A DNA stretch of 43,311 nucleotides, from the IMG/VR virus record IMGVR_UViG_3300037963_003546, positions 1-43,311 of that record; one strand, 5' to 3'. The notes under the pieces are model-generated. The model made no database searches. It saw nothing but the letters and a program-made list of their open reading frames with translations, and was not told the DNA's origin. Shown piece after piece: positions 3,088 through 27,209 of this stretch. The position numbers and the translations under genes are program-made. The first letter of the stretch is position 1. Each line of letters opens with the position of its first letter. The DNA is from a virus.

Positions 3088-3578
3088 TGGAAAGATTACC
3101 AACGCCTAATGACGATTGGTCGCAAGTCTACACTGTAATTCATACGCTCGTTAATGACTGGTTGGGTGAGACAAAGATGCTGGCAGAACCAGTGCGGCGC
3201 GATGGTGATGTGTCATTGATGCCAACGTCTGATGAAAAGTACGATGAGCGAACAGGCGACTATAAAAAACCGTCAACGTGGTGTGACCAAGACTTACTGT
3301 CAGATTTGATGGATGGCTGCACCGGAAACACGATTGCCACATACATTTCTGGCATGGGTTTGCGCTCAGAAAAAATCGGCGATGTACTGCAAGACAAAGT
3401 GCAAGACGCTATTGAAGACTTGTTTCTAGAGGTCAATTCAGTAGATGCCAGCGAGCGGTCCAACTTTGACTTTGAGCCTTACCACGATGACCTGCGTGAA
3501 ATGGCGTATGACGTTCTGGATGATATGAAAAATTACACCCTTCAATCTGTAGTTAATGAGACAAAGGGAGAAGGATGA
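3084..3578 (+). CDS. Hypothetical acidic protein
   Basis: A 164-residue protein. The start is the first ATG of ATGATG, which overlaps the previous stop and follows GGGGAGAAGG; the ATG at 3087 is an equivalent alternative. It is highly acidic, for example DFEPYHDDLREMAYDVLDDM near the C-terminus, and has no signal peptide or membrane segment. No family was recognised. Strong acidity is common among phage proteins that mimic DNA or bind host enzymes, but nothing specific supports that here. Confidence 0.6.
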   Translation: MMERLPTPNDDWSQVYTVIHTLVNDWLGETKMLAEPVRRDGDVSLMPTSDEKYDERTGDYKKPSTWCDQDLLSDLMDGCTGNTIATYISGMGLRSEKIGDVLQDKVQDAIEDLFLEVNSVDASERSNFDFEPYHDDLREMAYDVLDDMKNYTLQSVVNETKGEG

Positions 3579-3772
3579 TGCGAATTGTCCAAACCAAATT
3601 CACTGAGCATGGCCCTGTTCAAATACAGGATCACGGCTCTGCTTTCCTTGTGAGCTACCCAGATCAAAACAATCCTGGGCATCAGCGCGAAAAGACTTTC
3701 GACAAGATTTTTCCAACAGCATGGAACGACGCGCAAGCGTATGCCGCTGAGAAGCGTAGGGGAGAAAGGTGA
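3575..3772 (+). CDS. Hypothetical small protein
   Basis: A 65-residue soluble protein beginning at ATGATG within the same 15-base junction (GGGAGAAGGATGATG) as the gene before it. The sequence alternates short strands (RIVQTKF, PVQIQDHG, AFLVSYPD) with a C-terminal helix. No family was recognised. Its stop overlaps the start of the next gene. Confidence 0.55.
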   Translation: MMRIVQTKFTEHGPVQIQDHGSAFLVSYPDQNNPGHQREKTFDKIFPTAWNDAQAYAAEKRRGER

Positions 3773-14911: not shown

Positions 14912-15194
14912 TCAGTTTGCAGCTGCCGTGGGTGTCTCTGTACGGACAATCGAGAGGGCCGTATCGAGCGGCCTGATCGATCCGGCCAGGACGCCCGGCG
15001 GTCATGCGCGGTTTTCAGAGGAGGATATCGAGATATGGCAACAAAGACGAGGCTCACCCCGTGGCTTGCTAAAAGAAAAGGAACAGGCATCTGGTACGCC
15101 TACTGGCCGAGAGAAGATCATCCCAAGCCAGGAAAGCTATCTCTTCGTACAACAGATACTAGAGAAGCGGAAGATCGTTTCGCGGCGTTTTTAA
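14898..15194 (+). CDS. MerR/excisionase-type HTH protein overlapping integrase
   Basis: A 98-residue product. GTG 14895, ATG 14898 and ATG 14901 are all possible starts, and all overlap the repressor gene end. Residues 1-52 are a classic MerR/Xis winged HTH: ISQFAAAVGVSVRTIERAV, PARTPGGHARFSEEDIEIW. It would serve as recombination directionality factor or regulator. The last 53 residues are coded in another frame over the first 160 bases of the integrase gene and show no recognisable fold, so the functional part may end near 15050. Confidence 0.65.
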   Translation: MMKISQFAAAVGVSVRTIERAVSSGLIDPARTPGGHARFSEEDIEIWQQRRGSPRGLLKEKEQASGTPTGREKIIPSQESYLFVQQILEKRKIVSRRF

Positions 15195-16159
15195 TTCAGA
15201 AAAGTAGGATTGTGGGAGCGTCAGATGTCGATTCAACCGACACTCTCACAGTCGAAATGGCGTGTGCAGATTATTTGGCTGAACACGTTATGCTGGAAGG
15301 TGAGGAGGAAGAGGTCGTTGCAAAAGACACGCAGCAATACAGTATTAATAATCTTGCTCCGTTTTTCTTCCCCATGATGATTAAAGATATCACTATCGAA
15401 GACTGCAAATTATATGCGCGGAGGAGGCGGCATGATCCCACGGTTTCGCCGTTGGGAAACAAATCTCAAAATGGAACAATTAGGCGCGAACTTGGAGTGC
15501 TTCGAGCGGCGATCAACCATGAAGCTGCGCGGAGAAGAATATCGGCGTCAGCAGTCCCAACCATTCATAGACCTAAAGCGCCGCCGCCAAAAGATCGATG
15601 GATCACAAAAGGAGAGGTTGCTGGTTTGATCAGCGCAGCTGCAAGGTCAAATCACAAATGGGCTTGGCGCACGAAACTGTTTATCGAACTCGCTTATTAT
15701 ACAGCACATCGTAAGACGCCTTTATATGAACTCACATGGTTTCAAGTTGATCTTCAGAACCTGACTATCAAACTCAATGCGAGTTATGACAAAATAAATA
15801 AGAAACTAATTGAGCGCATCCAGACAGATAAAAAACGGCCAATGATTCCGATTGTCCCAGAGTTGGCGCAGATCCTGAGAGAGGCCAAGCTAAAGGCTGA
15901 GACAGAGTATGTTCTCGGTTTCCCTGGCAGCTGCGATGAAAGTTTCAATACCTTGTGTAATGTTCTTGGCCTTGACGATGTCACACCGCACACAATGCGG
16001 CACACCCGTGCCGTGCATCTAGCCCAGGACGGTGTCGGACTGTACGCCATTGCCGGGCTATTAGGCGATAGCATTGCCACTGTTGAGAAGAATTATTTGC
16101 ACCATTGCCCAGATCATCTTAGGGAGGAACTGGCAAAATCGGGAAGGCTTCCGACATAA
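15035..16159 (+). CDS. int: Tyrosine recombinase (phage integrase)
   Basis: A 374-residue site-specific recombinase. A core-binding SAM-like domain spans about 68-165 and the catalytic domain about 185-370. Active residues visible are Arg226 (YYTAHRKTP), Lys266/267 (TDKKRP), H319-x-x-R322 (TPHTMRHTR) and Tyr354 (EKNYLHH). At the fifth position the usual LGH is LGD (Asp345), an unusual substitution. GGAGG lies ten bases before the ATG. It acts on the attP region that starts right after its stop codon. Confidence 0.93.
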   Translation: MATKTRLTPWLAKRKGTGIWYAYWPREDHPKPGKLSLRTTDTREAEDRFAAFLIQKSRIVGASDVDSTDTLTVEMACADYLAEHVMLEGEEEEVVAKDTQQYSINNLAPFFFPMMIKDITIEDCKLYARRRRHDPTVSPLGNKSQNGTIRRELGVLRAAINHEAARRRISASAVPTIHRPKAPPPKDRWITKGEVAGLISAAARSNHKWAWRTKLFIELAYYTAHRKTPLYELTWFQVDLQNLTIKLNASYDKINKKLIERIQTDKKRPMIPIVPELAQILREAKLKAETEYVLGFPGSCDESFNTLCNVLGLDDVTPHTMRHTRAVHLAQDGVGLYAIAGLLGDSIATVEKNYLHHCPDHLREELAKSGRLPT

Positions 16160-16208: not shown

Positions 16209-16301
16209 GGGGTGTAGGATTTGTCGGGGTTTGTCGGGATTTTGATAGAATAAATGGCAGAAAACCGCAGAAAACCGCCTCTCTACAAATCCGACAGCGG
16301 T

Positions 16302-16341
16302 CTTAGCAGGGGAGCGCCTTCAGCCACTCGGCCACCTGTCC
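16302..16341 (-). other. attP core: 5' half of tRNA-Ser(GCU)
   Basis: The minus strand from 16341 to 16302 reads as the first 40 bases of a tRNA-Ser: acceptor GGACAGG, TGGCCGAGTGGCTGAAGGCG of the D-arm region, anticodon stem CTCCC, loop CTGCTAA with anticodon GCT (16307-16305), and the first G of the 3' stem. Similarity then stops; there is no variable arm or T-arm, so it is not a functional tRNA. It lies next to the integrase between repeat clusters, which indicates the attachment core identical to a host tRNA gene. Confidence 0.75.
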
Positions 16342-16461
16342 GTCCTATTTAACCCACTGTAAAACCTAGTTATTTTTGTCGGGTGCCTTGTCGAGAGAAA
16401 AGAACAGACACTGAACTGGGTCCGAATGTGGGTCCGAATGTTACCTTAAAATCTATTTCAC

Positions 16462-19400
16462 CTACCTAGTTGGCCGCGCCCAGCGGCTCGACTTACTCCC
16501 GCTCTTCTTATATGGCCCCGCCGTTGCTGACAAGAACACTTCCTTAGTTTTCCCAGCACCGGCAATCTGCGTAATTGCGGCCCCAGTGGCCCTGGCAATG
16601 GGACCAGCTGCTGGCCCGATCCGCTGGCTCAACTGGTAATTAAGCATCGGCTCCAGCGCCACATCGTAAAACGCTCTCATCATTTTGCGCTCTTGGGTGT
16701 TAGTAGTCGGGCTATCGTTTAGCGTCACTGCGAGGGTCGCGTCGGCTGCTTTACCGGCAGCACCAAGGCCGGGGCCAATCAGTGAATCAACGGCAGATCG
16801 ATTGTATCGGCTGCTGGCTTGCACAAGGTTTACAAATGGATCAGCTGCGCCAAACAACCCCGTCCTCGAAGCCCATTTTAAAGCACGGGTGGTGCCTGTT
16901 TCTTTTTTCCGGCGCTCCTCGTCCATCGTCAGTTCGTCGCGGATCTCGCTAATCGCGGCCTGGAAGGCGAAAAGTACAGGCAGCATTAATGCCGGTGCAA
17001 CCAACCGGGCTCGATCTGGAACGGATAATCCTCTCTCAGTAAATGCGCGTTTAGCCAATCGGCCGGAACGCTTCACGACTTGTTGATAGAAGGTCAAAGT
17101 GAACGCCTGGAGGTGATAAACGACTTGTCCCAAATTGCTGTTTGCCCATCTTGGCTTCACCGATTTGTTTGGACGCATGATGGTCTGATCTACAAATCGC
17201 CAGACTGCTTTCTTGTAAATTGCTCCCATCTCGCCGGAGATGTCGGTTGGGAATCCGTCAGACTTCATCATCCAGGCGCTAAACTCCTGGGCCTTCGCAG
17301 CTGGCACTCCAAGTTCTGCCAGAAACTCAGTGCTTAGTTTCGCCTGTTTGCCACCGGCAGCAATTCTTTTTGCCATCCGGCGAATAAATACGTTGCCAAT
17401 TTTGGTCGAGGACACACGTGTTGCTTCAGTGAATTGCTCCAGTCCGATACGCCGGAAATATCGATCAAGCACCCTCGCCGTCTTCTGGCCGGAGATGTCC
17501 TCTCCAGCGTAGCGAGAGGTCATAATTGATTCTCCCACATGGCCGGTAATAATTCCCAGATCCTCGGCCATGTCCCGCGCCTCGGATTTGTTCTGCTTGC
17601 GGAAACCTTTGATCGTTTCGGCGAAAGCGGAGCCCAGGTCGAGAGCATTGCCGGTGCGAACAGCTGGCATGACGATCTCGCCCAGTGACGATAAGGTAGC
17701 CCGTTCCAAATACATCAGCGCAGACCACATGCGGATGTTCTGGAGCATCTTGAGATCACCCCTTTGACCTCGCACAGCTGTGCCGGTCATCGTTTCGATG
17801 TGCGCGGCCAATTCGGGAATGATCTCGCCAGAGCCTTCGTCCTTCAGCTGCTGTTCCAGATCAGCCATGTTGGCGAAGTTATCGCCAAAGCGTCTGGCTA
17901 TCTCGGCGCGGCGAGTCGCCCGGCCCAAATACTGGGTAAGGCTTCCGACATGATCTTGGACGAGGAATTTATTTAAAGGATGGCTCTCGTTATCCACGGC
18001 CTTTGTAAAGACCCGGCCTCGGACAAAAGGCGCTGAAGCACCGCCACCTTGTCGAGGGCTATTAAGGTGACCAAAAATAAGCTCTTCGTATAACGCCGCT
18101 GCCGCATCCCTTGCTGCTTTTGCGTTCATGCCTGTCTCGCGATACGCCTGGGCAGCTGCTAACTCAAAACCACCTTGGTCCCGCATTACCATATCGGTGT
18201 CCATCTCTCTGGGGAAATACCCGGTCTTGACTTCACCGATTTCAACTCCGGCTTCGCGCATATATTCGAGGTTCTCATCGAGGATCTTGCGAACCTCGAT
18301 GGCCGCATCATGCAGAGGGGTGCCAGCGCGAAGCGCACGGGGATTGCCGCGCAACAATTTGACAATCTGTGCCACCGACTCAGCGTCATCGACATACTTG
18401 CCCAGCGCCTTGCTCAATTTATTATATTGCTCTCCGGCGCGGCTCTCGACGGCCTCGAAGAACGTCTGGTCAACCTCTCCGGCCTTTCCGGCTTCCGCAT
18501 GAAATATGTTGAGGATCTTCTCGGCTGTGGGCGTAAGCAGCCCACGCTCTTTCAGATCCGCTCTCATGTGCTGGTCACTGGCCGCGAGGGCAGTTCGTGC
18601 AATATTGCGAACAGGCCGGGTGACGGCGCTGGTTAATGACGTTGTCGCCTTGAGGACTTTCTTCAGATCCCGGCTGATGTCTTTGTAGACTTCTTTATCA
18701 AATAGGGGGCCGGGGAACCCATAGAGTTTTGGGCCGGTAGGGTTCTGGTTTACTTTTGTTTCGCCAGCTGTCTCAGTCGATCCCTCTCCTTGGGATCTCG
18801 CTCCTTGTTGGCGAGTCGTAGTATCGCCCTGTTGAGGATCGCCAGTTTGGCCTCGTCTGAAGAGGTCGCTTGTTTCTTGTCTTTTGCCACCTTGTCTCTC
18901 CTTCGCCTTACTTAAAATCTGTTCTGGAGAAACCTTCGCCTCTTCTCCAAACAGACCGGGGCCAGCCTGTTGCTTTTGCGCCTCATCAGCATAGAAACGC
19001 AACGCCTCGGCCACTTTATCGCGGCCTATATGTGATCTGCCACTATATTCTTTTGTATCTCGGAACATTAAGTCTAGGAATCTGCGCCCGGTTTTTGAAA
19101 TACCTTCACTACCAAAGATATCGCCCTGGCCGACAAACTCAGCCACGTTCCGTCCTTCTTGTCTCGCCTGACGAACTACCCTCACAGCTTCGAGGAGTTC
19201 TTGGGTAGCATCAAAGTTCGAGTCAACATTACCGCTTTGTATGGCCTGACGCATTTGTGACCACACACCGGCCACATCCATCATCGCGCCGCCAATCGCC
19301 TTTATATTATTATCGGCGCTTTCCGTCATTGCGGAGACAACATTCTCATCGCCAAAGGCTTTAGCCAGGAGCGCCGATTGGATGCGGCGTATGCCGTCTT

Positions 19401-22400
19401 GAGACAGTCTGCCTTCTTGTCTTATTGCGGCCTCATCTGCCCTTCCCACTACATCATCAATGAACCCTCTGACAAATTCAGCATTAGCAGCTGAATCAAC
19501 ATCACCGCCTTTATAAAGACTAACAACCTCATCTGACATGGCTTCAGCATCGGCCATTGCCTGTTCAGTCGAAGACATTGCCATTGTGTCGCGTTCATTA
19601 GCTTCACGGGCAATGCGTGGTAACTGGGTGGGGTCACCTCGATACACACGCACAAGGACAGGATTAACTTTATCATCTACGGGATAGCCCTGTTGTTCGA
19701 GGTGATCCCGGTAGTTGTTGGCTTTGTCATTATTATATGCACGGCGCAGCCCCAATGTCCGGCCATTGCCGCTCACAACAACACCCTGATCTGTGATAAT
19801 CATAGCGCCATCACTAGCCTTGGCTGATTTGTCCAAAAGCCGTGGATTGGGATCGTTGGCTATCTGCTGTATCTGCATTTCGGAGGCGCCACGGCTCCGA
19901 TCTCTCGGTTGAAATTTTTGCGGGTATCTTCGATTAGCCGTTCCATCATCGTTTTGAGATGCAACTAGTTCATCGGCTTCTACAATCGCATATTGCACGG
20001 GGAACTCTTCGCCACTGTTCAAAACTGCGGTGTCTGAGTCCATGACGTTACGCTTGATGATCTCAAGGGGTTCAGGCGTCGGCTCCGGCTCCGGCTCGGG
20101 CGTCGGCTGCGGCGCAGCCTCACGGGGCGCTGCCCCAATCGATTCCTTGACCCAGTTTGATAGCGCCTGACGCTGCTTGCCGATTCCCATGTTGGGGCCG
20201 GTAGTGCCGCCATATGTTTGGCCGGTTATCTTCTCGACAAGACCCTTATAGTCCTTACCGGCAGCAATAAAGACCTCATCATAGCCATCAAGAGTATTTC
20301 GGATTCGATCCGATTGCTCCTGGCTCTGTTCAATCTCTCTTGCGGATTCTTCATTAAGGCGCTGGTCATAGCGCGATATCGGAGTGGTTGAGTGAATCAG
20401 ACCATGCTTTGCCGACATGATAACAACGTCGATTCCGGCCTCGTCTAATTTCTTTAGATTTTCTTCCTGTTCGCGGCTTGCCCGGTCTGGGACGTAGCTG
20501 CCTTTACCGAATTTAAACCCAGCCGCTTTCTTCAATGTCTGGAACATTGAGCCCGTGTACATTTTAACAGCTGCCAAGGTGTCGGCCTTTTTATCCTTGT
20601 CGGCACAACATCCCATCACAATTAACTTCCGACCTTTTTTCGTCGCTGGGTTTGTGATGCTCTGGCTACCAAGCCGATCTGGCGCAACCTTTCGTAAGTC
20701 TCTGTTAGGATCTTTAGCTTGCTCGACTTCTTGGTCAGCTTTCGCTCGTTCTTGCGCTTGGCGAATCCGCTCATTTTCATTCAGTTGTTCAACTGTTGTG
20801 TTCAATCGCCTCGCTTGGGCTTGGTCCCGTGGGTCATTAGCATCCCAGAGCGGCTCTGTTTCCGGCTGTGGCTCCGGCTGTGGTGCTGGCTGTGGCTCTG
20901 GCGCGGCTTGCGAAGCATCCAGCTGTGCTTCTAACTCATCTGCAATTTTTCCGGCCACTAGTGAGAAATTGACATCTATTTCGGTATTGGCATTAAGTTG
21001 CTCAAATGCGTCTGCGGCCTCTAAAGCCTCTTGTTCATTCAGCCGTGCGTTAGGATCTTTGAGCGTCCTAAAAGTCTCAGGCGAAACCAAATTCTTTACA
21101 GCATTAATCAGATCTGGGTTTCTGTTAGATACGGTGAACCTTCTCGTAGGATCAGACTCTGGCTGCGGCCCTGGCGCGGCCTCTGGTTCCGGCTGTGGCT
21201 GTGGTTCTGGCTGCGGCTCCGGCTGTGGCTCTGGCGCGGCCTGTGGCTCTCCACCCGGTATGCCACGTTGCTGACCCGGCTCGGATTGGGCGCGGCGTCT
21301 GGCGTCAGATGCTCTCTCAGCTGCATCCGCTTCTGCAAAGGTAGCCCGGCGCGGATCTCCTCGATCAGCCCTTGGCTGTTCCTGGGCCTGTTCCTGGGCC
21401 TGTTCCTGGGCTTGTTCTTGCTGTGCCTCTTCACGAAGTGTTTCAACAACGGTAAATCGATTAGGCTTAGTCGGATGGGTTGCAATCTGTAACACCTGAT
21501 TGCCGGTCATATTTTTGTTTGCAACCTTCACAATCCATTTGGCTGCTTGTTTCTGATCACCAAATGTTATCGGCCCACCTTTATCAGATACGACATATTT
21601 CTCGCCGCGATATTCCTGGGTCGCATAGAATCCGTCTTTCCCGACCTTCGCTTTATTACTGGTCTTCTTGCCTTCAAACGGGTTTGGCCCTTCCTCTCTT
21701 GGCCCGGCCTCGCCACGGGCTTCTTGTTCTTGTCGGAATTGCTCTTGCCGTTTTTGCTCTTCTTCGTATGCACGGGCGCGGCGTATTGCATCCTCTTCGC
21801 CTGTTGGCCGCTCTTGCCACGGTGACGGGCCTTCATCTTGAGGAGGCCGATCCGCACGAACGCCCGGTCCTCGATCTTGCACATCGGTAAACGGGCCTTC
21901 TGCGCCTTGAACCTCTGGATCTGGCTCTGTCGTGCGATAAGTCTGACGGGGTAAATCTTGAAACTCGTCTATACGCTGGCCTTTAGCCTTTCCACGGGCC
22001 ACTCGGTCAACCTCTGATCGAGCTTCAACATCCTGTGCGCGGCGTGGTTCAGTAGCATATTGGCGCGTTGTGAGTTGGGCTTCCGGCACAATGTATTGTT
22101 CAGACCCAGGCTCAACCTCCCCTGTGCGCGGATCATAGCGTTCGACCAAGGCTAAGTTCTGCCTCGTTGCTTGGTCGTATTGTCTATCAATAATCCTAAC
22201 GGGAAAGCCTTGATCTAATACGACATCAAACTGAGCCGCGCCCTCCGGCCTACCAGCTGTCTGGGTGTCGGCTACGCCCTCACCGGCACGTTGGCGCTGA
22301 CGATCCGCAAGATCAAATGCTTGCTGGGCTCTCCTGTCCGTTTCCTGTTTAACATCACCGGCCATATCAATACCGGCAGCAGTTCCAGCATCTCCGACAT

Positions 22401-23739
22401 CGACTTGTCCTTCTGGTGTGACCGGCATCACATCCGGCAGAGGCTCTCGCACACGGCCAGTTTCTGGCGCAACTGCCGGGTCCATCTCACCTAGTGCAAT
22501 CTTCTCTTCTTGCTTCTGCTGGCGAACAACGTCTTCCCAGACACTTCCTCTCGGTTGCCTGTCTAATAACACTCCCTCTTTTGTTCGCCGGGCTCCCTGG
22601 TTATTAAACCCAGCGGCATCTTGCGGAGCCCCCCGTGCGGCTTCTTCCTCGCGCCGGGCCTCAACAATGTTCGCCATCTCTTGCTGACGGGTTTCATCTA
22701 TCGCTGCAATCTGCTCCTCAGACGCTCCTGTGCTGCGAAGGATCTCAGCTGCCGCCGTATTCCCTTGATTTGCTTCCTCGGCCACATCCTCGATAGTGAC
22801 ATCTTCCGGCGCTTTATTTTTGCGCTGTGCAATCTGCCGTACAGTTTCGACAGACCCTCTTATAGTCGCACCAGTTGGGCCACCCCCTACGGCTCCGGCC
22901 AGACCTCGATCAAGACTCTGCGCCAGCGTCCAGACCTTATTTGTGCCTAGAACCTCTGTCGCATAATCAATCTGTTCTTGCCCAAATTCAGTTGCAGCCT
23001 CTTTTACACCGGCCTTGCCAACCGCCTTTGCAGATTCTCTCAATGTTGTTTGCGCTGGCCGGGTAAGGATTTGTTTGCCGATATCTTTTGCAGAACGGCC
23101 AAGACCCAATGCCCCTCTACCACCAATGCGTTCCAGCGCAGCAGACGCTATCGCGCCCGGTAGGGCTTCGACATTCTCTTGCAACCCGGCAGTAGGCAGA
23201 CCTTTGTTCTCTGCCCTTATCGTTCCCAGTTCGCCGGAACGTGCCGTGATATACCCTGGCAAAGTGGCGGGATTAACCGCCGCAAGCATATCAGGAATAG
23301 ACCGAATCCCCTGTTCTGCGGCAAAGGTGGCAATGTTCCCAATGCTGGGATCTTCTTTAACAGCTTCCCAAGGCACTGTTGCCTCATAAAGAGGCTTTAC
23401 ATCCCTACGCACACCCTCGGCAGCAACCTTAAAAGGGTTTTCGACCCTAAGAAAATCCGGCGTTAAGGCTTCTGTGACCGCTGGAGGTACGAGACTTTCA
23501 ATGACATCCCCAGCTGATTGAACAACATTACCAACAACATCGGTAGCGCCAGCGCCCAATTCAGCGGCCCGTTGAAACGCACCAACCAACGGGTTGTTGC
23601 TCGGATCTGGGTTATCTAACTCATCAAAGGGATCGCCGCCGCTAATGAGGGCTTGTTGACTTGTTTGTGACCAATCCTGTTCCCACGGGTTGCCTTGTTG
23701 GCCTTGTTGGCTCCAATCCATATCCCAAGGATTTGCCAT
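16462..23739 (-). CDS. Giant polyvalent/ejection protein with DUF6884-like and DdrB-ParB-like domains
   Basis: A 2425-residue protein. The ATG at 23739 overlaps the previous stop (TAATG). The N-terminus has two NPWxxDWSQ repeats. Low-complexity linkers follow (QEQA repeats near 770-790, PEPQ repeats near 830-860 and 960-980). Residues about 1030-1200 resemble DUF6884/YaaA: KLIVMGCCADKDKK, YTGSMFQ, VVIMSAKHGLI, SRYDQRL. Residues about 1240-1600 resemble the DdrB-like ParB superfamily: VQYAIVEADELVAS, then VVSGNGRTLGLRRAY. The last 750 residues are a helical region with a hydrophobic stretch near 2250, like gp16-type ejected proteins. It is probably injected with the DNA and may help genome entry and anti-restriction; that role is inferred from P1 DdrB. 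Confidence 0.75.
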   Translation of the reverse strand: MANPWDMDWSQQGQQGNPWEQDWSQTSQQALISGGDPFDELDNPDPSNNPLVGAFQRAAELGAGATDVVGNVVQSAGDVIESLVPPAVTEALTPDFLRVENPFKVAAEGVRRDVKPLYEATVPWEAVKEDPSIGNIATFAAEQGIRSIPDMLAAVNPATLPGYITARSGELGTIRAENKGLPTAGLQENVEALPGAIASAALERIGGRGALGLGRSAKDIGKQILTRPAQTTLRESAKAVGKAGVKEAATEFGQEQIDYATEVLGTNKVWTLAQSLDRGLAGAVGGGPTGATIRGSVETVRQIAQRKNKAPEDVTIEDVAEEANQGNTAAAEILRSTGASEEQIAAIDETRQQEMANIVEARREEEAARGAPQDAAGFNNQGARRTKEGVLLDRQPRGSVWEDVVRQQKQEEKIALGEMDPAVAPETGRVREPLPDVMPVTPEGQVDVGDAGTAAGIDMAGDVKQETDRRAQQAFDLADRQRQRAGEGVADTQTAGRPEGAAQFDVVLDQGFPVRIIDRQYDQATRQNLALVERYDPRTGEVEPGSEQYIVPEAQLTTRQYATEPRRAQDVEARSEVDRVARGKAKGQRIDEFQDLPRQTYRTTEPDPEVQGAEGPFTDVQDRGPGVRADRPPQDEGPSPWQERPTGEEDAIRRARAYEEEQKRQEQFRQEQEARGEAGPREEGPNPFEGKKTSNKAKVGKDGFYATQEYRGEKYVVSDKGGPITFGDQKQAAKWIVKVANKNMTGNQVLQIATHPTKPNRFTVVETLREEAQQEQAQEQAQEQAQEQPRADRGDPRRATFAEADAAERASDARRRAQSEPGQQRGIPGGEPQAAPEPQPEPQPEPQPQPEPEAAPGPQPESDPTRRFTVSNRNPDLINAVKNLVSPETFRTLKDPNARLNEQEALEAADAFEQLNANTEIDVNFSLVAGKIADELEAQLDASQAAPEPQPAPQPEPQPETEPLWDANDPRDQAQARRLNTTVEQLNENERIRQAQERAKADQEVEQAKDPNRDLRKVAPDRLGSQSITNPATKKGRKLIVMGCCADKDKKADTLAAVKMYTGSMFQTLKKAAGFKFGKGSYVPDRASREQEENLKKLDEAGIDVVIMSAKHGLIHSTTPISRYDQRLNEESAREIEQSQEQSDRIRNTLDGYDEVFIAAGKDYKGLVEKITGQTYGGTTGPNMGIGKQRQALSNWVKESIGAAPREAAPQPTPEPEPEPTPEPLEIIKRNVMDSDTAVLNSGEEFPVQYAIVEADELVASQNDDGTANRRYPQKFQPRDRSRGASEMQIQQIANDPNPRLLDKSAKASDGAMIITDQGVVVSGNGRTLGLRRAYNNDKANNYRDHLEQQGYPVDDKVNPVLVRVYRGDPTQLPRIAREANERDTMAMSSTEQAMADAEAMSDEVVSLYKGGDVDSAANAEFVRGFIDDVVGRADEAAIRQEGRLSQDGIRRIQSALLAKAFGDENVVSAMTESADNNIKAIGGAMMDVAGVWSQMRQAIQSGNVDSNFDATQELLEAVRVVRQARQEGRNVAEFVGQGDIFGSEGISKTGRRFLDLMFRDTKEYSGRSHIGRDKVAEALRFYADEAQKQQAGPGLFGEEAKVSPEQILSKAKERQGGKRQETSDLFRRGQTGDPQQGDTTTRQQGARSQGEGSTETAGETKVNQNPTGPKLYGFPGPLFDKEVYKDISRDLKKVLKATTSLTSAVTRPVRNIARTALAASDQHMRADLKERGLLTPTAEKILNIFHAEAGKAGEVDQTFFEAVESRAGEQYNKLSKALGKYVDDAESVAQIVKLLRGNPRALRAGTPLHDAAIEVRKILDENLEYMREAGVEIGEVKTGYFPREMDTDMVMRDQGGFELAAAQAYRETGMNAKAARDAAAALYEELIFGHLNSPRQGGGASAPFVRGRVFTKAVDNESHPLNKFLVQDHVGSLTQYLGRATRRAEIARRFGDNFANMADLEQQLKDEGSGEIIPELAAHIETMTGTAVRGQRGDLKMLQNIRMWSALMYLERATLSSLGEIVMPAVRTGNALDLGSAFAETIKGFRKQNKSEARDMAEDLGIITGHVGESIMTSRYAGEDISGQKTARVLDRYFRRIGLEQFTEATRVSSTKIGNVFIRRMAKRIAAGGKQAKLSTEFLAELGVPAAKAQEFSAWMMKSDGFPTDISGEMGAIYKKAVWRFVDQTIMRPNKSVKPRWANSNLGQVVYHLQAFTLTFYQQVVKRSGRLAKRAFTERGLSVPDRARLVAPALMLPVLFAFQAAISEIRDELTMDEERRKKETGTTRALKWASRTGLFGAADPFVNLVQASSRYNRSAVDSLIGPGLGAAGKAADATLAVTLNDSPTTNTQERKMMRAFYDVALEPMLNYQLSQRIGPAAGPIARATGAAITQIAGAGKTKEVFLSATAGPYKKSGSKSSRWARPTR

Positions 23740-25397
23740 TAGATTTTCTTCCAATTAGCCCGGTTGTTTGGATCTCCTCCTAAAAACCTAAAACCCCCCA
23801 CGACTGTACCAACGGCTGGCCCTTGGGTCTGGCTCGGCGTTGTGGCCCTTACGGGGCCAGTTGTTTGGGCTCTCTCTAGATCATAACCGCCCCCCCCGAA
23901 AACATTAGGTGGATCTACCTGTACGCCCGATTCACGAATAGCTTGGTAGATAGCGATTGATGGAGAAACTTGTTGCGGTCCCGTAATTAGTTCTACGGCC
24001 CTGTTTGAAATCTCACCAATCATCGCCCCGCCGTCACTGATCGCTTGATCTGTCGGCACCCCAAGTGCGTTGTAGATGGCGTTGTTCAGAGCCTCCAAGT
24101 CATCCATGCCAACAGTTTGCGGCCCCCGCCTTTTGCCGATTTCGGCGATTCTCTCAGCTGAAGCGAGTCTGTCGGCTTGCAGTCCTCTGTCCACATCCCA
24201 TTTGTCGCGCTGAAGTCGGTTTCTGGCTTCTACGCCCAGTAATCTGGAAAGGTTGGTGTCTAGTTTGCCTTCCAGATTTTTATCCGCTGTGTATTTTGTG
24301 CCTGCAAGAGTGTTACCGGATATGAACTTGTCTGCGTCTGCACGAATGTTGGCAGCATCTACGGTGGCCCCCGCCTGGGTATTTGCTATGGCTTCGCCAG
24401 ATGCCGCCTTTATGTTGGCAATAACCTCATTAGCTGCGTTGTTCATTGAAACCCGCTCTTCTTGGCTGGCGTTGTTTGCAGTGGCGACATCAATGAGCGT
24501 TTTCTGAACTAGCTTATTTATTTCTTCCTTCGAGGCGTTATTTAATCTGGCGAGTTGTATTGCATTTTCTAACTTGGCTTTTGTAGCGTTTATTAAATCC
24601 GCACCTTTGAGTTTTTGTATTTTGACTTTTGCGTCATCGCCATACATACGCGCTTTAGCTTGTTCTTGCGCGATTTTAAACTTCACATCTTCGATGGCCT
24701 GTTGATGGGCTTGAGCATCCTCGCGCCCGGCCATGCTGACAGATTGGGTTGGCGAAATTGGCTTGCCTTTATTCAACGTGAATAAAGCGCGAAGCCTATC
24801 GTCATCAGAGCCTTGTGGCGCGGCCATGCCCATTGTACCGAATAAATTATTAAAATTAGCGCCCATCGTTTCGGGTGAAAGCCGCGCATACTGGGCCATC
24901 ATCGGGCCTAATCCCTGCATGACTTCATTATAGGTTGGATTCCGCATAGCTTCTGGCATTGGGCCAACCAATTCATTGCTATCTGGAACCACATTACTTT
25001 CATTGAAAGCGAGTAGGTCAGGGTCGCTTGTCGGCACAAATGTTGGTATGTACTCACCGTCATATAGACGTTGCCCAGTAGGTGTCCTTCCCGTTGGACC
25101 CGCGCCGGGCGCCACCATAGGACGAGGCATCTCGGCACCTGACCCGCGAGGGGCTAAAGCGTCCGTAATAGCATTGCCAAACAACCCAGCTGCTCTGTCT
25201 TTATCCGCAACTGCCTGTCGGGCCGCTTGGATCTGAGCCCGTACTTGTTCAGCCTCGGCTAACGCTTTTTCCGCTTGGGCCGCTTGGTATTGGCGCTTTT
25301 CAAATGAGCTTTGAGGCGTAAAAAAATCTCTTGCCAGATTTCCAAACGCTTGACCTAGTGGCGTTACATAACGGCTGCTGTATGGGTTCTGTCTCAT
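23739..25397 (-). CDS. Internal virion / DNA-ejection protein
   Basis: A 552-residue, Ala/Gln/Asn-rich, mostly helical protein. A long coiled-coil-like region (about 40-70) starts with SFEKRQYQAAQAEKALAEAEQ, and further helical stretches span about 225-420. It has no signal or membrane segment. Its position, between the short ejection proteins and the giant gene, and its composition match the gp15-type middle ejection proteins of podoviruses. It has AGGAAA before the ATG. The stop overlaps the start of the giant gene, so the two are probably made together. Confidence 0.65.
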   Translation of the reverse strand: MRQNPYSSRYVTPLGQAFGNLARDFFTPQSSFEKRQYQAAQAEKALAEAEQVRAQIQAARQAVADKDRAAGLFGNAITDALAPRGSGAEMPRPMVAPGAGPTGRTPTGQRLYDGEYIPTFVPTSDPDLLAFNESNVVPDSNELVGPMPEAMRNPTYNEVMQGLGPMMAQYARLSPETMGANFNNLFGTMGMAAPQGSDDDRLRALFTLNKGKPISPTQSVSMAGREDAQAHQQAIEDVKFKIAQEQAKARMYGDDAKVKIQKLKGADLINATKAKLENAIQLARLNNASKEEINKLVQKTLIDVATANNASQEERVSMNNAANEVIANIKAASGEAIANTQAGATVDAANIRADADKFISGNTLAGTKYTADKNLEGKLDTNLSRLLGVEARNRLQRDKWDVDRGLQADRLASAERIAEIGKRRGPQTVGMDDLEALNNAIYNALGVPTDQAISDGGAMIGEISNRAVELITGPQQVSPSIAIYQAIRESGVQVDPPNVFGGGGYDLERAQTTGPVRATTPSQTQGPAVGTVVGGFRFLGGDPNNRANWKKI

Positions 25398-26132: not shown

Positions 26133-26749
26133 TAGCTTATGACCTTTGAAGATCCGGCACCTCTAGATGCCTGATTAAACAAACCTGTCCCTAAACCTCT
26201 GTAGCCAGCCCTTTCAGCGCGAAGCCCTGTGCCAATGTCATTAATGAAACTTGCAAAAACCGGCCCCAGAGCATCGTAAACTGGTGGAGCCGTAAGAGTT
26301 CCAGATCGCGCAACGGCGCTTGACGCAGCAGCTGATGGATCAGCAGCTGCGCGGTTTTGGGCGTAAAGGTCACTCCGCGCCGATTCAATGTCGCCTCTGG
26401 CTCTGTTTGCAGCGCCAATCGCACGGTCACCAAGCATGGCCGTGTTCTTCGCGTACAGTTCCTGTAAATCACCAAGACGCCGCGCTCCGGCTGAAGTGTT
26501 TAAATTGCCTACGCCAGCCAGCGATAGGATCGCCTTGCGCCGTGCATCATTAAATTGATCCGTAAGTTGCGGTTGATAGAAATCGAGATACCCGGTTCTT
26601 ATATTGTCGAAGTAGGGGTCATCAAATTGAGCAAATTCCGCATCAATTGCAGAACGGCCTTCGGCAATGTTTGCCCTGCGCTGTTCTTCCTTCTGTCTCG
26701 CGATTTCAGCTGAATTGTCTTTAGGCGGCGACGGCGGCGATAGGCACAT
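26132..26749 (-). CDS. Internal virion/ejection-associated protein
   Basis: A 205-residue protein. The ATG at 26749 follows GGAGAAGGGACA and overlaps the gene before it by 29 bases. AEGRSAIDAEFAQFDDPYFDNI, then YQPQLTDQFNDARRKAILSLAGVGNLNTS, is a pattern shared by ejection-region proteins of many marine podoviruses. The C-terminal half is Ala-rich. It is expected inside the capsid; no catalytic motif was seen. Confidence 0.6.
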   Translation of the reverse strand: MCLSPPSPPKDNSAEIARQKEEQRRANIAEGRSAIDAEFAQFDDPYFDNIRTGYLDFYQPQLTDQFNDARRKAILSLAGVGNLNTSAGARRLGDLQELYAKNTAMLGDRAIGAANRARGDIESARSDLYAQNRAAADPSAAASSAVARSGTLTAPPVYDALGPVFASFINDIGTGLRAERAGYRGLGTGLFNQASRGAGSSKVIS

Positions 26750-27209
26750 TGTCCCTTCTCCATACATAAAGGTGGAAATCTTCAGCTTCCCTTCCGTATT
26801 CTGGAAGCGTGGACTCCCGTTGCGCTCCGAGAAACTCAAGCCATTTTTGGGCGTCTTCATGCCCATCCATTGACTTGCACTCCACCCGGTGCGCTCCTGT
26901 CGCGGCCAGCGAAGGGATAATAACACGCTTTACGAATTTTGTAAGAGAAATTGCGATTCTTGAGAAATTGTCGGTAGCGAACATATGCACATTCCACACG
27001 CCAGGATGGCAAGGCCCGGCTCCGATAACAGCTATCGGTTCTGGATCTGAAGCAATCCAGCCAAACTCGCCCAGCCATACACAGTCTTGTGCAACATCAC
27101 TGGGGTCGTCATTCCACCGAGTGGCGTAAATCTCTTTCTTGTCCCATTCGCGCATGTTCGTTGCGACGAAAAGAGCCTCATTATATGTGACAGGTGACAT
27201 ACGCATCAT
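26721..27209 (-). CDS. gp13-like internal virion protein, GNAT-fold
   Basis: A 162-residue protein. The ATGATG start overlaps the tail-hub stop (ATGA), with GAGG upstream. VATNMREWDKKEIYATRW and the later strand-helix alternation (PIAVIGAGPCHPGVWNVHMFATDNF, HRVECKSMDGHEDAQKWLEFLG) match the T7 gp13/DUF2833-type phage proteins with an N-acetyltransferase-like fold. The acetyl-CoA loop is degenerate, so enzyme activity is uncertain. Such proteins are needed for virion morphogenesis. Confidence 0.7.
   Translation of the reverse strand: MMRMSPVTYNEALFVATNMREWDKKEIYATRWNDDPSDVAQDCVWLGEFGWIASDPEPIAVIGAGPCHPGVWNVHMFATDNFSRIAISLTKFVKRVIIPSLAATGAHRVECKSMDGHEDAQKWLEFLGAQRESTLPEYGREAEDFHLYVWRRDNVPIAAVAA

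Follow-up and report, generated by a model that had tools for sequence, protein, structure and literature searches.

The last late gene in a 43,311-base virus record from IMG/VR (the window, meaning the whole stretch of DNA analysed here) encodes a protein of 2425 residues in which a DUF6884 domain stands beside a DdrB-type ParB domain, and the question raised by this locus is what such a giant chain does for the phage that carries it. The reading that we consider probable is that of a large ejection protein of a temperate podovirus, polyvalent in kind, which would deliver a cysteine-dependent YaaA/DpdC-fold module together with a DdrB-type ParB module. The 2425-residue product of the original prediction was recovered as one uninterrupted ORF, but on the minus strand (Table 1), and the motifs quoted from it are all present (CCADKDKK at residue 1044, SAKHGLI at 1109, SRYDQRL at 1122, IVEADELVAS at 1252 and VVSGNGRTLGLRRAY at 1321; residue numbers of P0001 equal the ATG-based numbers plus 5). 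Chimerism or mis-assembly of the ORF was rejected as an explanation, given the absence of a stop in 2430 codons of a single frame, the skewed GC content of the three codon positions (0.65/0.46/0.50) and another environmental giant, L002 (IMGVR_UViG_3300008255_000259, 2131 aa), which matches the N-terminus, the ParB domain and the C-terminus in identical order. Pattern scans of IMG/VR with the whole protein returned no close relative of the full 2425-residue chain.

The placement of the gene at the end of the ejection genes agrees with the order of the late block, which runs from TerL (terminase, PHROG 38) through portal (PHROG 12082) and major head protein (PHROG 9953) to the internal virion protein gene (PHROG 308), several unassigned genes, the gene of a 552-aa protein and, last, the giant gene. 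The 552-aa product is probably a second ejected protein, judging from its sequence and place; its match to LPD38 is weak (E 0.012, under the cut-off). The position after portal, head and PHROG 308 genes recurs in the related podovirus MW202738. Because the window encodes an integrase and a Cro/CI-type HTH protein, we read the phage as temperate. Beside the integrase gene (15035-16159, plus strand) lies a stretch resembling the 5' half of a tRNA-Ser (16280-16345, minus strand; ggacaggtggccgagtggctgaaggcgctcccctgctaag), which probably serves as attP core when the phage integrates into a tRNA-Ser gene; neither ARAGORN nor Rfam reported a complete tRNA at this position. PADLOC returned a match to PDC-M57A, a name that was not traced in the literature searched.

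Table 1 Features of the giant gene and its neighbours in the window.
Feature	Position	Strand	Description
Giant-protein gene	16462..23739	-	ATG at 23739, stop at 16462; one open frame
552-aa gene	23739..25397	-	Directly upstream; its stop overlaps the ATG of the giant gene (TAATG); 0 Cys
PHROG 308 internal virion protein gene	26721..27209	-	E 3.2e-14
N-terminal region	22600..23739	-	Residues 1-380; phmmer matches to N-termini of giants
P/E/Q-rich linker	21130..21432	-	Residues ~770-870; composition scan
DUF6884 (YaaA-fold) domain	20131..20634	-	Residues 1036-1203; Pfam PF21818, E 2.9e-9
CxxxK motif	20596..20610	-	C1044-C1045-A-D-K1048; the only two cysteines of the protein
SAKHGL motif	20398..20415	-	Residues 1109-1114; SAK and G invariant across 45 aligned domains
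ddrB-ParB domain	19642..20016	-	Residues 1242-1366; Pfam PF18763, E 9.8e-32
GNGR motif	19759..19770	-	Residues 1324-1327; N and R invariant in alignment A2 with P1 DdrB
DdrB-type helical extension	18850..19641	-	Residues 1367-1630; PHROG 5143; alignment A2
C-terminal virion module	16465..18672	-	Residues 1690-2425 (736 residues); tblastn

Both ends of the chain match proteins of other phages. The N-terminal region is similar to the corresponding parts of two environmental giants by phmmer (1e-30 for L142 and 2e-5 for L002), and the C-terminal module, which contains one hydrophobic stretch by hydropathy (~2244-2266), matches L002 (5e-66) and, by tblastn, the giant of Microcystis phage Mae-Yong1326-1 (6e-30), the structural protein of KPP25/phiR18 (1e-17) and the particle protein of phage tf (4e-6). 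Its last ~700 residues are homologous to KPP25 ORF088, tf gp51 and the LUZ24 particle protein, and the label 'particle protein' in tf and its relatives rests on LUZ24 proteomics (PMC3517423, PMC3890496). The tf protein (tf_51, 1021 aa) is cysteine-free and, unlike the giant, has no recognised cargo domain. A gp16-like C-terminus, as had been proposed, was not confirmed: single-sequence hhalign probabilities were 1.2% for T7 gp16 and 0.2% for P22 gp16. The C-terminus also had no homologue among PDB sequences and no LPD38 similarity to L297. Between the two ends, the Q/E/P linkers are real, with up to 52% P+E+Q per 50 residues in the composition scan, and further ones lie at residues ~945-965 and ~1205-1226. 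Two unrelated Pfam domains in one large late-gene protein adjoining virion genes give the architecture of polyvalent proteins. Since the C-terminus is homologous to annotated virion proteins, the gene sits at the ejection-gene position and cysteine is excluded from the chain, the giant is very probably a multi-domain, virion-ejected protein, as was first suggested.

The cysteine pattern was compared across several protein sets. In the 2425 residues of the giant, C1044 and C1045 are the sole cysteines and fall inside the CxxxK motif of DUF6884, while the cysteine content of the other genes in the window (0.94%) predicts about 23 (P(<=2) ~3e-8). Among long-known ejected proteins are T7 gp15 and gp16, N4 vRNAP, and P22 gp7, gp16 and gp20. 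These controls have no cysteine in 6874 residues, against 60 in 9406 residues for 18 other virion proteins of T7, N4 and P22; T7 gp14 has a single one, at residue 2. In 31 giants with ddrB-ParB (84,428 aa), cysteine makes up 0.041% of residues versus 0.87% in the remaining ORFs of those loci, counted in stop-to-stop ORFs among which related sequences are not independent, and it is the sole strongly depleted residue (log2 -4.4, all others within ~+/-0.55). Counted likewise, 57 ORFs with an embedded DUF6884 have 0.033% cysteine outside the motif and 1.95 cysteines per protein within it. CxxxK itself is kept in 67 of 67 distinct embedded copies; in most of them a second cysteine stands at +5 (CxxxKC, as in L192, L302 and L294), while a few, including the giant of the window, have it at +1 (CC). 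One further cysteine each occurs in L306 (residue 1841), L307 (residue 2703) and L308 (residue 1256), in a PPC/APC-t-(d/s)-f motif which we take to resemble the catalytic motif typical of C5-cytosine methylases; that of L306 falls within a Pfam DNA_methylase match. Exceptions are L307, which retains seven more cysteines (3543-3756) without an obvious catalytic role, and L297, L301 and L302, where a small number occur beyond the motif. Shorter marine DUF6884 proteins are depleted in tryptophan as well as in cysteine.

This pattern suggests that ejected or polyvalent chains tolerate cysteine mainly where chemistry requires it, and C1044 is for that reason probably catalytic. Exclusion could reflect, for example, avoidance of disulphides while a chain is threaded through the envelope, and near-complete exclusion may be a general signature by which ejected proteins can be predicted. 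Narrow full-text searches returned no paper on this depletion of cysteine in ejected proteins.

Both predicted domains scored above their Pfam gathering cut-offs (PF21818, 37.6 bits against 30; PF18763, 110 bits against 27.6), and PHROGs 5935 (E 3.6e-8) and 5143 cover the same two stretches. Within DUF6884, C1044 and K1048 are invariant across 45 aligned domains, and the LSAxxG motif appears as MSAKHG, which keeps SA..G but, like many relatives, has M for L. AlphaFold run on the single sequence of residues 1020-1660 gave a useless model (pLDDT 38), and a joint alignment of DUF6884 and ParB was rejected since MAFFT placed DUF6884 rows over the ParB part; DUF6884 was accordingly folded on its own, with AF2 and an alignment that included 45 related viral domains. 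The resulting model (pLDDT 87.9, pTM 0.83) has a YaaA-like fold, in line with the domain named in the original prediction. Its top PDB matches by Foldseek were E. coli YaaA (5caj) and AF0587 (2q07), for which VIA-align gave Z scores of 9.1 and 8.9, with the next unrelated rows at ~6; we put the matches to FtsZ, PurE and thymine-DNA-glycosylase (Z 5-6) down to generic alpha/beta resemblance.

These fold matches agree with the Pfam authors' description of DUF6884 as distant kin of YaaA with CxxxK and LSAxxG motifs, and with the lesion binding of YfjM (PMC11701544). YfjM of B. subtilis, itself a DUF6884 protein, was identified as an interactor of abasic and RNA-base lesions, and a model of it contains a flipped nucleotide (PMC11701544). 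This would favour a different role for the domain in the giant: a YfjM-like repair or lesion-recognition function, unconnected with restriction, by which the entering genome is guarded against damaged or mis-incorporated bases. We regard this as doubtful, as the window has no lesion-repair context beyond ordinary replication and recombination genes, and the association of DUF6884 with DpdA operons, described below, would be left unexplained.

The second module is related to that of phage P1. P1 DdrB aligns with the ParB stretch of the giant and ~180 following residues at 33% identity (304 aa, E 1e-37), the PHROG 5143 match spans residues ~1237-1630 (E 2e-70), and the GNGR motif supplies the conserved arginine to which a ParB pocket role is assigned (PMC5512222). 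Like the giant, P1 DdrB combines ddrB-ParB with a following helical region, is encoded by a late phage gene and is cysteine-poor (2 Cys in 995 aa); in contrast, it lacks DUF6884, and the giant exceeds it 2.4-fold in length and ends in a podoviral virion module. The HExxH peptidase motif is absent from all 2425 residues and no peptidase Pfam family matched, so for want of the C-terminal metallopeptidase domain described for P1 DdrB the giant is filed as a domain relative of P1 DdrB and not as its whole orthologue. The DdrB-ParB domain is the hub of phage polyvalent proteins, with nuclease or NTP-sensing roles suggested (PMC5512222), and these proteins are, as here, large, multi-domain and encoded next to virion genes; a text search of that paper found no DUF6884 or YaaA module. 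In P1, 39 unique peptides place DdrB in the virion head, and its listed role is 'Aids DarB addition to capsid' (PMC9024508); according to PMC12810830, Dar proteins are ejected together with the DNA. Since P1 DdrB aids the addition of DarB, a DdrB-ParB domain alone is not a restriction blocker, and the earlier claim of a giant that blocks host defence, or modifies it, reaches further than the data.

The same role of P1 DdrB is consistent with a purely structural giant, an internal core or ejectosome component in which DUF6884 and ParB would be DNA-binding folds that order DNA or load partners, with no catalysis after entry. The C-terminal matches to structural proteins fit this, as does the description of YaaA as a DNA-binding protein with a positively charged cleft that is common to DUF6884 (PMC11701544). 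We consider it unlikely. The CxxxK cysteine is strictly retained in a protein class that otherwise loses cysteine, which argues for chemistry over mere binding, and the DUF6884 insert can be swapped: in L002 the flanks and the ParB domain are shared, but RadC and, read by eye, a lysozyme/transglycosylase-like stretch stand in place of DUF6884. From this replacement in an otherwise homologous giant, the domain behaves as swappable cargo. Beside the L002 giant, genes resembling PAPS-reductase/DndC-type and Dcm proteins were read by eye (L002:16308-17809, minus strand).

Two profile scans of IMG/VR yielded 152 DUF6884 ORFs in the loci collected. Many are long, with proteins of ~500-1265 aa and giants of 1.4-4.7 thousand residues. 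All six long ORFs scanned with Pfam contained DUF6884, and in several of the six it shares the ORF with InPase, LPD1, LPD23, LPD38, ART-PolyVal, GNAT, methylase or AAA_34 helicase domains; by these sequence matches DUF6884 recurs as a module in the giant polyvalent proteins of phages. On marine contigs (L192, L194, L226 and others) DUF6884 proteins of ~530-1265 aa share conserved 'MKDKAVNMTRxPQGIEPFIKF' ends and look like virion cargo proteins, and in L194 (7638-9233) the gene sits between terminase and portal. An ART-like appearance of the C-terminal part of these marine proteins found no support (hhalign probability 0.1%). In a tree of 62 domains, parsimony needs five changes between 'embedded' and 'free' states, of which well-supported branches force two; the domain of the window groups with 26 embedded marine copies (SH-aLRT 96, in a quick tree with long branches). 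The combination had been called unusual, and the pairing is indeed rare: no second ORF with both domains was found among 152 DUF6884 and 152 ddrB-ParB ORFs, and no other fusion in class-wide samples of 385 + 369 = 754 genomes (two classes). The individual modules are not unusual in phage virion-type giants.

Small free DUF6884 genes were found beside deazaguanine DNA-modification genes. In Acinetobacter phage HD01 (L270:4986-9014) one adjoins QueE-QueC-QueD-FolE and a queuine-transglycosylase (DpdA-type) gene, and in Halorubrum virus HRTV-29 (L187:1881-3006) a small one adjoins DpdA. Both proteins score >55 bits against DUF6884 profiles built without them and are candidate viral DpdC-like proteins. 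DpdC of the 7-deazaguanine DNA systems is annotated with DUF6884 (PMC11888242), and PMC12839542 presents the DpdB of these systems as a ParB-like ATPase and their DpdC as the dPreQ0 hydrolase. With AF0587 as one of the two nearest folds, the domain of the giant could accordingly be DpdC/ArcS-like: Cys/Lys would attack the nitrile of the 7-cyano-7-deazaguanine base in DNA, and the virion-delivered enzyme would convert deazaguanine marks of host or phage, leading a Dpd-type system to confuse self with non-self, while the ParB-fold neighbour would take the part of DpdB. We judge this very unlikely. TGT/DpdA (PF01702) had no match in the 43-kb record, which is possibly incomplete, and matched in 14 of 14 control genomes; no queuosine-pathway gene appeared among the scanned ORFs, and 151 of 151 other ddrB-ParB ORFs lack DUF6884. 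Because the window has no TGT match, a deazaguanine role for its giant is a possibility only. The fold (YaaA, Z 9.1) and the CxxxK and SAxxG motifs are common to the giant and the YaaA/DUF6884/DpdC superfamily, whose members are free cytoplasmic proteins, whereas the copy studied here is embedded in a virion-type giant of a phage without a DpdA match. A broader proposal, that cysteine is selected against in ejected giants as chains threaded across the envelope, that the kept cysteines are catalytic and that DUF6884 is an unrecognised, virion-delivered, cysteine-dependent and swappable cargo for DpdC/ArcS-like editing of modified DNA bases on entry, seems improbable to us as a whole.

We therefore return to the polyvalent ejection protein with a cysteine-dependent module. 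Its N- and C-terminal parts would be the virion and delivery parts, with DUF6884 and the DdrB-type ParB with its helical extension between them on disordered P/E/Q linkers. The head would hold the packed chain, which would thread into the cell along with the first DNA, and nearly all cysteine would have been purged from it because of this packing and threading. DUF6884 would then act in the first minutes, as a cysteine-dependent nucleic-acid enzyme, on incoming or host DNA, with a modified or damaged base as its target, and C1044 (with K1048) would have been kept because the domain is such an enzyme. The ParB module may dock to DNA or nucleotide, or help to load partners like DdrB in P1. Against this, YaaA-fold proteins may only bind DNA, and the known role of P1 DdrB is the loading of other proteins. 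We infer packaging, ejection and catalysis, and a plausible benefit would be that entering DNA is protected from restriction or damage.

On this basis DUF6884 would join the cargo domains of polyvalent proteins that the virion delivers, and marine and other environmental viruses supply many examples of it. Cysteine exclusion provides a simple sequence test in which each kept cysteine of an ejected protein points to an active site. The test makes the function of a DUF testable by single mutants (C1044A, K1048A) and helps to spot ejected effectors in unannotated phage genomes.
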